Below the pieces are notes generated by a model, which was not told the origin of the DNA, ran no database searches, and worked only from the letters and a program-made list of their open reading frames with translations. Source: Pelosinus sp. (GTDB lineage: Bacteria; Bacillota; Negativicutes; DSM-13327). Taken from it: 36,077 bases of DNA. Positions 8,382 through 17,022 of the stretch are shown piece by piece. The position numbers and the translations under genes are program-made. The stretch is taken from assembly GCA_029239675.1 (NCBI GenBank), contig JARBUM010000020.1, positions 1 to 36,077 of the forward strand. Direction: 5' to 3'. Each line of letters begins with the position of its first letter. The stretch's first letter is position 1.

Positions 8382-8457
8382 TGGCTAGGGCGGCAGGATT
8401 CGAACCTACGGATGCGGGAATCAGAATCCCGTGCCTTACCAGCTTGGCGACGCCCCA
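8382..8457 (-). tRNA. tRNA-Gln (anticodon CTG)
   Basis: A 76-nt minus-strand tRNA with CCA encoded. The acceptor stem TGGGGCG pairs with CGCCCTA (one G-T pair). The anticodon loop TTCTGAT within the GGGA/TCCC stem carries CTG, reading CAG. The T arm contains GGTTCGAATCC. It stands alone, with its own promoter (8477-8505) and the shared terminator at 8310-8341. Confidence 0.95.
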
Positions 8458-14980: not shown

Positions 14981-15352
14981 TTAGGGGTTGCTTTCTTGTG
15001 GATCAATGATGGCAATGTCGCCTTCCTCGCCAGTGCGAATGCGAACGGCATTTTCTATAGGATAAATAAAAATTTTCCCATCACCAATTTTGCCTGTGCG
15101 ACATACCTTTTTAATGGTTTCTACAACAGTTGCTACAGGGACTTCGCACACTACGATTTCTATTTTTATGCCAGCTAAGAGATTAATATTATATTCTTTG
15201 CCGCGATATACTTCCGTATGACCTTTTTGCAGACCACAACCAAATACTTGGCTAACGGTCATGCCGGTGACGCCAATGTCAGCTAAAGCTACTTTTAACT
15301 CTTCCAATTTACCCGGGCGAGTCACTACATCAATTTTGGTTATTTTTTGCAT
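14981..15352 (-). CDS. glnB: PII nitrogen regulatory protein (GlnB/GlnK family)
   Basis: Trimeric PII signal protein that binds ATP/ADP and 2-oxoglutarate and reports nitrogen and carbon status. The 123 aa show the PII opening (MQKITKIDVVTRPGKLEEL), the T-loop GCGLQKGHTEVYRGKEY with the conserved Tyr (Y54, equivalent to Tyr51 of enteric PII) and the B-loop RTGKIGDGKIFI (86-97), followed by the C-loop RIRTGEEG. The tail (DIAIIDPQESNP) is slightly longer than in enteric PII. AAAGGTGG precedes ATG 15352. It lies 22 nt after amtB, and such linked PII proteins (GlnK type) usually plug the ammonium channel when nitrogen is plentiful. It shares the amtB promoter and attenuators. Confidence 0.95.
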   Translation of the reverse strand: MQKITKIDVVTRPGKLEELKVALADIGVTGMTVSQVFGCGLQKGHTEVYRGKEYNINLLAGIKIEIVVCEVPVATVVETIKKVCRTGKIGDGKIFIYPIENAVRIRTGEEGDIAIIDPQESNP

Positions 15353-15374: not shown

Positions 15375-16805
15375 TTAGTGAGATTTAGAATGTGATGCTT
15401 GTAAGATAGGATTTGTTAGTGATTCTGATTGACTAGCGATATGGGAGAAGGATAGAGAAGAGCCAGCAGTTACGTCTTGATAAGTATAACCCCGTTCGCC
15501 ATGTTCTGCAATATCTAGGCCAATATCCTCATGGCTTTCATCAGAACGCACTTGCATGAATAAGCTAATTACTTTCAGAATCACGAAGGTCATAACCGCT
15601 GCAAAAACCCAAGTGACCGCAACGCCAATTAATTGGGTGAACACTAGGCTGGGGTTACCAAAGAAGAATCCATCAGCTCCAGCTGGGTTAACAGCTGTGG
15701 AAGCAAATAAGCCAGTGGCAATTGCACCCCAAGTACCGCCAACTCCGTGAACACCAAATGCATCAAGAGCATCATCATAACCAAGTTTTGCTTTTACAAT
15801 ACTAACAGCGAAGAAACAAATAGAACCGCCAGCTAAACCGATAATAATAGCAGGTAACACACTAACAAAACCTGCAGCAGGTGTAATTGCAACGAGACCA
15901 GCTACACAACCGCTTGCTGCGCCCAATATGGTAGGTTTGCCGTGATAGAGCCATTCTGTTAGCACCCATGAGAGTGTAGCAGCAGCTGCTGCTACATGAG
16001 TAACAACGAAAGCACTAGCTGCCAAACCGTTAGCTGACAATGCACTGCCGGCATTGAAGCCGAACCAGCCGAACCAGAGGAGAGAAGCACCAATGAGAGT
16101 CATTGGCAGATGATGTGGCAACATAATTTCCGTACCATATCCTTTACGTTTGCCGATAAATAAAGCAACGACCAATCCGGAAATACCGGAGGAGATGTGC
16201 ACGACAGTACCGCCGGCGAAATCTAATATACCCATTTCTCGCATCCAGCCGCCTACGCCCCAGACCCAATGAGCTAAAGGATCATAAACGAAAGTAGCCC
16301 AAATGAGAATAAAAACAGCAAATGCAGGGAATCTCATACGTTCAGCAAATGATCCAGTAATCAAAGCTGCTGTAATAATGGCAAACATACATTGGAAAAT
16401 CATAAAAACTAAGTGGGGGATGGTAGCAGCATAATCTGCATTAGGCAACTGCCCTACACCATTTAAACCAAACCAGGCTAAACTGCCGATAAAATGATTA
16501 ATATCGGGACCGAAGGAGAGAGAATATCCCCAAAGTACCCATTGTACTGTAATAAGTCCGATGATAAAAAAACTTTGCATAAGAGTGCTCAATACATTTT
16601 TAGTTCGGACCATACCACCATAGAACAAAGCTAAGCCAGGTGTCATAAGCATAACAAGTGCAGCGCTTAGTAAAATAAAAGTGGTATCACCTGTATCAAT
16701 GGTAGCAACATCCGCAACAGCTTCTGTTGCTTCAGCGAAGGCTGTTCCAAGGCTAAAGAGCATCGTAAGAACAGAGGCGCTCATCATAGTAAGTAGCTTT
16801 TTCAT
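15375..16805 (-). CDS. amtB: Ammonium transporter Amt/AmtB
   Basis: Trimeric ammonium channel of the inner membrane. I start at ATG 16805 (MKKLLTMM), 7 nt after GGGAGGA; five extra upstream residues are unlikely. The 476 aa begin with a cleavable signal peptide (to about residue 24, AFAEA), as in AmtB, then eleven membrane helices. The pore twin histidines are H203 (DFAGGTVVHISSG) and H353 (DAFGVHGVGGTWG), and FAERMRF is conserved at 153-159. The cytoplasmic tail (HEDIGLDIAEHGERGY) is the part that contacts PII in relatives. It heads the amtB-glnB operon and has a consensus promoter and two tandem leader terminators, so expression is probably controlled by antitermination. Confidence 0.96.
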   Translation of the reverse strand: MKKLLTMMSASVLTMLFSLGTAFAEATEAVADVATIDTGDTTFILLSAALVMLMTPGLALFYGGMVRTKNVLSTLMQSFFIIGLITVQWVLWGYSLSFGPDINHFIGSLAWFGLNGVGQLPNADYAATIPHLVFMIFQCMFAIITAALITGSFAERMRFPAFAVFILIWATFVYDPLAHWVWGVGGWMREMGILDFAGGTVVHISSGISGLVVALFIGKRKGYGTEIMLPHHLPMTLIGASLLWFGWFGFNAGSALSANGLAASAFVVTHVAAAAATLSWVLTEWLYHGKPTILGAASGCVAGLVAITPAAGFVSVLPAIIIGLAGGSICFFAVSIVKAKLGYDDALDAFGVHGVGGTWGAIATGLFASTAVNPAGADGFFFGNPSLVFTQLIGVAVTWVFAAVMTFVILKVISLFMQVRSDESHEDIGLDIAEHGERGYTYQDVTAGSSLSFSHIASQSESLTNPILQASHSKSH

Positions 16806-16874
16806 ATAAATTCCTCCCATTTTGTGTTTTTTTAGATAGCTAAATATATTATTTTATACTTCTCTAGGGAATAG

Positions 16875-16920
16875 AAAAGGCGCCTAAAGGTAGTGATACC
16901 TCTAGGACGCCATTGTCCCT
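16875..16920 (-). promoter_or_regulatory. amtB leader attenuator 2: hexaloop hairpin overlapping a terminator
   Basis: Minus strand: the hairpin GGAC-AATGGC-GTCC (within 16904-16920) shares its 3' arm with a second stem, GGCG...TAGAGGTA pairing with TACCTTTAGGCGCC (16879-16911, one bulge and a few G-T pairs), which is followed by TTTT. The two structures exclude each other. The loop AATGGC is identical to that of attenuator 1 and has A at position 1 and G at position 4, the pattern required by ANTAR proteins. Confidence 0.68.
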
Positions 16921-16929
16921 AATAGACAG

Positions 16930-16969
16930 AAAAAGCCTTCGCATGTAGTATGCGAAGGCGCCATTGCCT
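16930..16969 (-). promoter_or_regulatory. amtB leader attenuator 1: hexaloop hairpin overlapping a terminator
   Basis: Minus strand: the hairpin AGGC-AATGGC-GCCT (16956-16969) overlaps by 4 nt the terminator GCCTTCGCAT/ATGCGAAGGC (16935-16944 with 16950-16959), which ends in TTTTT. It begins about 17-20 nt after the predicted transcription start. Forming the hexaloop hairpin would remove the first 4 nt of the terminator stem. Confidence 0.7.
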
Positions 16970-16993
16970 ATTTCGTATAAAATTTATAAATGG

Positions 16994-17022
16994 ATTATAC
17001 CAATATTTCATAGCCGTGTCAA
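16994..17022 (-). promoter_or_regulatory. Promoter of amtB-glnB
   Basis: Minus strand TTGACA (17017-17022), a 17-nt spacer and TATAAT (16994-16999): a full-consensus sigma-A promoter, so regulation probably falls on the leader rather than on initiation. Confidence 0.85.

Follow-up and report, generated by a model that had tools for sequence, protein, structure and literature searches.

The window, by which we mean the whole 36,077-nucleotide stretch of Pelosinus sp. DNA analysed here, carries on its minus strand the ammonium transporter gene amtB and, 22 nt after it, glnB, which encodes a PII signal protein. The order on this strand is promoter, gate 1, gate 2, ribosome site, amtB and then glnB, where a gate denotes a hairpin with A at position 1 and G at position 4 of its hexaloop (A1/G4) together with an intrinsic terminator that overlaps it. 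The features, with predicted folding energies, are as follows.

16994..17022, minus strand: sigma-70 type promoter, TTGACA-17-TATAAT, with 12/12 consensus matches and TG before the -10 box
16956..16969, minus strand: putative antiterminator hairpin P1 of gate 1, AGGC-AATGGC-GCCT, loop at 16965-16960, read from the sequence, hexaloop conserved in the class; -4.4 kcal/mol
16930..16959, minus strand: intrinsic terminator T1 of gate 1 with its U tract, which has the 3' arm of P1 in common; -15.7 kcal/mol
16904..16919, minus strand: putative antiterminator hairpin P2 of gate 2, GGGAC-AATGGC-GTCCT, loop at 16914-16909, read from the sequence, conserved; -5.6 kcal/mol
16871..16911, minus strand: intrinsic terminator T2 of gate 2 with its U tract, one bulge; -20.9 kcal/mol
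15375..16820, minus strand: amtB, ammonium transporter (Pfam Ammonium_transp, 9.8e-130)
14981..15352, minus strand: glnB, PII signal protein (Pfam P-II, 1.5e-26)

A first-pass annotation, made from the letters alone, had placed at 16875-17022 a full-consensus promoter and two short hairpins, each with a C-G-closed AATGGC loop and each overlapping the 5' arm of an intrinsic terminator. All of this can be seen in the sequence, and the interval is right, with the U tract of T2 running on to about 16871. The promoter boxes lie at 17022-17017 (TTGACA) and 16999-16994 (TATAAT), separated by a 17 nt spacer. The stem of T1, GCCTTCGCATACTACATGCGAAGGC, occupies 16959-16935 and is followed by TTTTT, while that of T2 (16911-16879) begins at G4 of the gate 2 loop, with half of the P2 loop and the P2 3' arm common to both structures, and is followed by TTTTCTAT, a mediocre U tract. 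The two loops start 51 nt apart, with T1 in between. Since T1 and T2 overlap the 3' arms of the hairpins, hairpin and terminator are predicted to be mutually exclusive folds; the hairpins are weak and the terminators strong, so that the terminators would win unless something holds the hairpins. The amtB start is likely the ATG at 16805 behind GGGAGG, the listed open reading frame start at 16820 being an upstream in-frame ATG. In the predicted leader fold, a short segment past each terminator (16928-16922 and 16870-16865, minus strand) is base-paired with the 5' arm of the gate hairpin. A further hairpin with loop AGGGAC, which overlaps gate 2, was dropped by eye, as it is not kept in the leaders of other families that we looked at. 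No Rfam family reaches its curated cut-off in the leader (best bit score MicC, 30.8 against 90); over the whole window a tRNA at 8385-8457 is the sole family that passes, and the matches at loose thresholds are all far under their own cut-offs.

The window genome (G000), an assembly of 3.88 Mb in 271 contigs with 89% completeness, is placed in the class Negativicutes, together with G012 and G079. A 600-base core of the amtB locus of G012 has an exact match in a record of Megasphaera, itself a member of Negativicutes, and the stretch taken from G079 has one in a Veillonellaceae record. We read 126 Amt leaders of the class. Of these, 112 precede close AmtB proteins (at least 51% identity) and 14 precede distant ones (about 35-40%); the 112 were taken from 95 of 114 genomes with AmtB among the matches listed in a 150-genome class sample, and the fragments in G037, a partial gene in G142 and most distant paralogs were not included. 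Under a strict rule (A1, G4, C-G closing pair, a stem of at least 3 pairs and an overlapping terminator) 17 leaders have no gate, 35 one, 70 two and 4 three. A relaxed rule, which allows G1 or U-G closing, demands A at loop position 2 and considers the last 320 nt, gives two gates in 82, one in 22 and none in 8 of the close leaders, and two, one and none in 2, 10 and 2 of the distant ones. Counted by the best close leader per genome (n=95), two gates are found in 75, one in 15 and none in 5, and the 75 two-gate genomes span 37 genus and 25 family labels. Among the eight close leaders without a gate, two are from genus g65 (L144, L145) and two belong to paralogs (L171, L230) whose genomes have a gated main amtB. 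The loops of L186 and L216 are A1/G4 but carry C or G as their second base and thus fall outside the relaxed rule, and in L229 a loop closed by U-G sits close to the stretch end; only for L187 is there no explanation.

How specific is the loop? The first-pass annotation had taken A1 and G4 as the signature that ANTAR antiterminators require. When the strict detector was run on the 126 leaders with the loop bases left open, it returned 187 A1/G4 gates against 29 G1/G4 gates and 1 to 9 for each of the remaining 14 combinations of positions 1 and 4 (47 together), making A1/G4 at least sixfold commoner than any other loop type. On the opposite strand 7/126 leaders showed one gate, and dinucleotide shuffles of the Amt leaders contained any gate in 10/378 cases. 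The detector is home-made, with thresholds that were set after the first leaders had been seen and that differ between scripts. For the stems, alignment A1, the basis of our covariance model R1, was built from 43 of 54 distinct units, near-duplicates and units not resembling gates being left out. Its stem is paired in 77.1% of cells, with compensatory changes present, and its covariation score of 0.367 compares with 0.190 in shuffles, 0/500 of which reach the observed value. Because units entered the alignment only with a purine at loop position 1, A at position 2, G at position 4 and C-G closure, its loop and closing columns prove nothing, and the open-loop count over the 126 leaders is the fair test of loop identity.

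Model R1 was also used to look beyond amtB. It gives 25.0 bits for the hairpin of gate 1 and 23.5 bits for that of gate 2, both of which are in its alignment, and with 20 positions it is weak on its own: among the matches listed there are 24 in G148 and 6 in G144, two genomes without an ANTAR match. For this reason an overlapping terminator, and no open frame of about 100 codons or more, were demanded of every match. We checked 54 non-amtB matches, mainly with E up to 1, from the window genome and 14 others, among the matches listed; 21 had an overlapping terminator, 10 of these were set aside as lying inside open frames of more than 100 codons (L298 among them may be real), and 11 were kept. 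In the window genome 150 of 1203 candidates were scored, so gates there may have been missed. Judged from their translations and not from searches, the genes behind the kept gates include an amino-acid ABC transporter (L151 in the window genome, and L305), a hydantoinase/carbamoylase-type amidohydrolase (L290, L294), an M20-type peptidase (L292), a carbon-nitrogen hydrolase (L288) and a solute-binding protein (L262), along with four without a discernible nitrogen tie (L251, L276, L277, L312). The first-pass annotation had proposed a search for the hairpin pair upstream of other nitrogen genes; gates do stand before several such genes, singly, and the paired arrangement was not seen there. By eye all eleven carry one hexaloop each, which makes amtB unusual in this set for having two. 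In the ANTAR-less G144 and G148, 0/9 of the R1 matches checked passed, the one with a terminator (L289) lying in long open frames. In the window genome, L151 (contig C78, 28634-28653, minus strand) is one hexaloop gate with its own terminator before a second gene set. Five further matches were rejected: L146 (25.2 bits) is antisense inside a response-regulator gene, L150 lies inside glnB, and L149, L152 and L153 are coding sequence, the last two also without a terminator.

In the ANTAR sites described so far, two hairpins stand before one terminator; the first-pass annotation had contrasted this with one terminator per hairpin here, and the difference holds in most sampled class genomes. Nor is a partner hidden nearby. 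A second A1/G4 hairpin of at least 3 pairs, one of them G-C, lies about 0-20 nt upstream of 2 of the 187 gates, against 6.1 expected from shuffled upstream sequence, and the window does not meet the definition of a dual-hexaloop ANTAR substrate, that is, a pair with a short linker before each terminator. With a similar, somewhat looser test we read 30 of 40 listed R1 matches in four genomes from outside phyla. In a deltaproteobacterium (G150, L004) three of four terminator-bearing matches have a strong partner hairpin, 26-28 nt away loop to loop, while the fourth lacks a partner and its terminator is at the threshold of -8; classical elements are thus visible when present. A weak partner accompanies one of four terminator-bearing matches in G153 (L038, recorded as Desulfosporosinus), and none was found at the two such matches in G152 or the two in G154. 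These outside matches without a partner suggest that the single-hexaloop form may extend beyond the class, and some of them may be chance.

We therefore read the leader as ANTAR-type attenuators, each with one hexaloop per terminator, arranged in series before amtB-glnB, and give this reading a probability of roughly 0.8. At the level of genome sequence, the anatomy, the conservation, the loop identity, the lack of a close partner hairpin and the co-occurrence with ANTAR proteins described below are established; that an ANTAR protein binds here and brings about antitermination is inferred.

The two gates differ from each other in a consistent manner. In the 82 two-gate leaders the second pair, just beneath the closing one, is G-C in 77 of the gate 1 hairpins and A-U in 77 of the gate 2 hairpins, the exact order of G-C then A-U being found in 72 leaders from 23 family labels, and the identity of this pair is not required by the detector. 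The start of the best terminator stem likewise falls on the closing G or beyond it in 56/82 gate 1 units, and inside the loop in 72/82 gate 2 units. As this order is kept across the class, the gates are probably not spare copies, and probably neither equivalent nor interchangeable. Such a division of roles, together with the presence of two gates in 82 of the 112 close leaders, is also what one would expect of a single classical dual-hexaloop element that has been stretched, in which gate 1 recruits the dimer and hands it to gate 2, along the lines of the successive-binding model for EutV, and T1 is an extra insertion. We consider this unlikely. From loop to loop the gates are separated by 44-149 nt (median 54), and in EutV a linker longer by 20 nt abolishes antitermination in vitro (PMC8934654); moreover, the eleven other intergenic gates are single by eye, and 10 of the 14 distant Amt leaders have one gate. 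Starting instead from attenuators with one hexaloop each, a wider proposal can be made, which we advance tentatively and at somewhat worse than even odds: that the class uses single-hexaloop ANTAR antitermination, and that the two amtB gates, non-interchangeable and in fixed order, have been kept since before the class diversified and act on one regulator as recruiter and then verifier. If so, gates 1 and 2 would differ in affinity or timing, and ANTAR control would work without the dual motif and without a set spacing.

The absence of an ANTAR protein from the genome had been set in advance as a refutation; two ANTAR response regulators, L001 and L002, were found. L001 adjoins groES/groEL and a kinase (L297) with GAF_PdtaS, HisKA_2 and HATPase domains, so that this locus has the PdtaS-PdtaR-type layout of a REC-ANTAR regulator adjoined by a kinase with GAF_PdtaS and HisKA_2. 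The best solved relative of L001 is 1s8n, Rv1626 (2.3e-57), which we take to be PdtaR. Aligned to EutV, L001 keeps R142, K143, K149, E160, Y164 and M172, which contact or position the hexaloop, and has D for E146, R for K147 and Q for R168. In the 30/30 best-scoring class ANTAR proteins that were read, R142, K143, K149, E160, M172 and Y or F at 164 are kept; among 20 further ANTAR proteins, mostly from family f25, 13 have T at 149. In that family, the amtB leaders L224, L225, L227 and L228 often have a U-G-closed hexaloop, and T replaces EutV K149 in the ANTAR proteins L317-L322. A covariation of the K149 to T exchange with the U-G closing pair was considered and set aside, as it fails in G067 and G139.

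With two ANTAR regulators and two gates in the window genome, one might envisage an AND gate for two signals, in which L002 and its kinase also take part or each of the two ANTAR proteins serves one gate. The class gives little room for this, and we regard it as very unlikely: exactly one ANTAR match is present in 55 of the 75 two-gate genomes (two in 18, none in 2), among them G006 of the same genus, an assembly of one contig with two gates and a single ANTAR match of the L001 type. The two genomes without a match, G027 and G102, are 87-88% complete. In addition, L002, which has its own GAF_PdtaS kinase, carries Q, A and H at the positions of EutV R142, E160 and Y164. The pair L002/L316 (contig C3 of the window genome) is thus a second PdtaS-type kinase and ANTAR regulator, whose RNA target, if any, may differ.

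The serial ANTAR attenuators that we favour should go together with ANTAR proteins. ANTAR is found in 131 of the 150 sampled class genomes (130 over the cut-off), and AmtB, among the matches listed, in 111/131 ANTAR-positive as against 3/19 ANTAR-negative genomes (Fisher p 3e-9, with phylogeny ignored and the lineages not independent); 20 of the 131 have no AmtB among the matches listed. In genus g65 amtB is present and gates are absent in both genomes sampled (G128 and G144, 99-100% complete). G144 has no ANTAR match and G128 only one below the family cut-off, and these are the only near-complete sampled genomes with amtB and without an over-cut-off ANTAR protein, among the matches listed; this genus has apparently lost ANTAR and gates jointly. 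In a wider look at 20 chosen named genomes, three of them class members (L011, L013, L020), ANTAR is present in 12. A plausible amtB gate was seen in five genomes outside the class (L004, L007, L015, L038, L076), all with ANTAR, and four of the 12 ANTAR-positive genomes (L003, L044, L055, L059) show no plausible amtB gate. Neither ANTAR nor a plausible gate was found in two Bacillus, two Alicyclobacillus, one Terribacillus, one Brocadia, one Polyangium and one Bacillales genome. Several further outside leaders gave detector matches that, on visual inspection, resembled coding sequence or had odd loops, and these were discounted. With no binding data, and no Rfam family at cut-off in the leader, a non-ANTAR RNA-binding protein or a small ligand could still be what recognises the hexaloops. 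We judge this marginally less credible even than the AND gate, given that A1/G4 and the C-G closure fit the ANTAR rule, that gates track ANTAR in g65, and that no plausible gate without ANTAR was seen in the outside genomes checked.

Chance was assessed by dinucleotide shuffling of the window leader. Two gates arose in 0/20,000 shuffles, at least two C-G-closed A1/G4 hexaloop hairpins in 1/20,000, and at least one A1/G4 hairpin with any closing pair and an overlapping terminator in 27/20,000. Terminator-like sites alone do appear by chance in this AT-rich region, at 0.4 per shuffle, and yet plain tandem terminators or accidental hairpins without regulation would account neither for the two-gate result nor for a loop identity kept over many family labels, and this reading is refuted as far as sequence can refute it. 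The class-wide conservation is stronger evidence than the shuffles.

From these elements a mechanism may be proposed, in which binding, phosphorylation, the nitrogen signal, the gain in read-through and the effect of having two gates are all inferred. By default, RNA polymerase would halt at T1 or T2. The PdtaS-like kinase would phosphorylate the PdtaR-like ANTAR regulator encoded beside groES/groEL, and the dimer would bind the hexaloop of gate 1 as the RNA emerges from the polymerase, flipping out G4. So held, the weak gate 1 hairpin would persist for as long as the polymerase needs to clear the U tract, leaving T1 blocked; at gate 2 binding would be repeated, after which amtB-glnB could be read. 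If the read-through fractions multiply, as we infer, two gates would leak less when off and respond more steeply. The suggestion of the first-pass annotation that the leader is an ANTAR-type candidate is supported in this sense, with protein binding, termination and the signal not demonstrated.

How does this compare with the known systems? The phosphorylated ANTAR dimer of EutV is described as engaging hexaloops singly, and G4 of the bound loop is flipped onto Tyr164 (PMC3369931, PMC8934654); antitermination in Enterococcus in vivo needs both hairpins and a short linker (PMC3369931, PMC8934654). The Enterococcus faecalis eut leaders (Ramesh 2012, Walshe 2022) share with the amtB leader the A1/G4 hexaloop, the C-G closing pair, the overlap with a terminator and a REC-ANTAR regulator with a kinase, and eutP P1 has an A-U second pair as gate 2 does. 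They differ in having two hairpins, with a linker of 5-12 nt, before each terminator, both of them needed, whereas Negativicutes amtB has one hairpin per terminator, with the wide loop-to-loop spacing given above. Because EutV needs both hairpins, a hexaloop on its own might act more slowly or more weakly than we assume here.

ANTAR control of ammonium transporters is already known as a prediction: in 2012 it was predicted for ammonium transporters, PII and other nitrogen genes (PMC3369931), and Desulfotomaculum acetoxidans was credited with 13 attenuators in six units (PMC3369931). Those nitrogen regulons, found by covariance search, resemble ours in their ammonium transporter and PII targets and in having several attenuators per unit, and differ in being defined by a dual-hairpin model. 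The actinobacterial ANTAR motif is likewise a dual hairpin, with a linker of 2-25 nt (PMC8164766). Walshe 2022 proposed a single hexaloop as the motif for binding, still required the two hairpins for antitermination, and urged further study of lone hexaloops (PMC8934654). One hexaloop being enough for binding agrees with what we propose; lone hexaloops, however, were expected in that paper where no polymerase time limit applies, and here they are the rule in attenuators. What is new is the single-hexaloop attenuator that is common in the class and is doubled and asymmetric at amtB. We found no earlier account of single-hexaloop attenuators or of Negativicutes amtB in the open-access literature, supplements excluded, and the other Negativicutes and Veillonella motifs in the passages of PMC8632094 consulted include none at amtB.

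Could these leaders help to explain why both hairpins are required if EutV binds one at a time, as was asked in Walshe 2022 (PMC8934654), where the reach of single hexaloops in ANTAR regulation was also raised? Scores of natural leaders with one hexaloop and one terminator make this question testable with short templates. Searches based on a dual-hairpin model may also miss a large regulon. The mycobacterial PdtaS-PdtaR system is alike in its kinase, which has GAF_PdtaS and HisKA_2, and in the neighbouring REC-ANTAR regulator, and unlike in its output: an ANTAR RNA there lies over the start site and was shown to repress translation (PMC8164766), whereas the anatomy here is that of transcription attenuation. 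The reading proposed for amtB would tie ammonium uptake in the class, including Megasphaera, to a PdtaS-type kinase of unknown signal. As a separate observation, resting on short protein motifs, groES/groEL is often found in the vicinity of the main ANTAR regulator and its kinase in class genomes (L001, L297, L315 and several of L113-L142).
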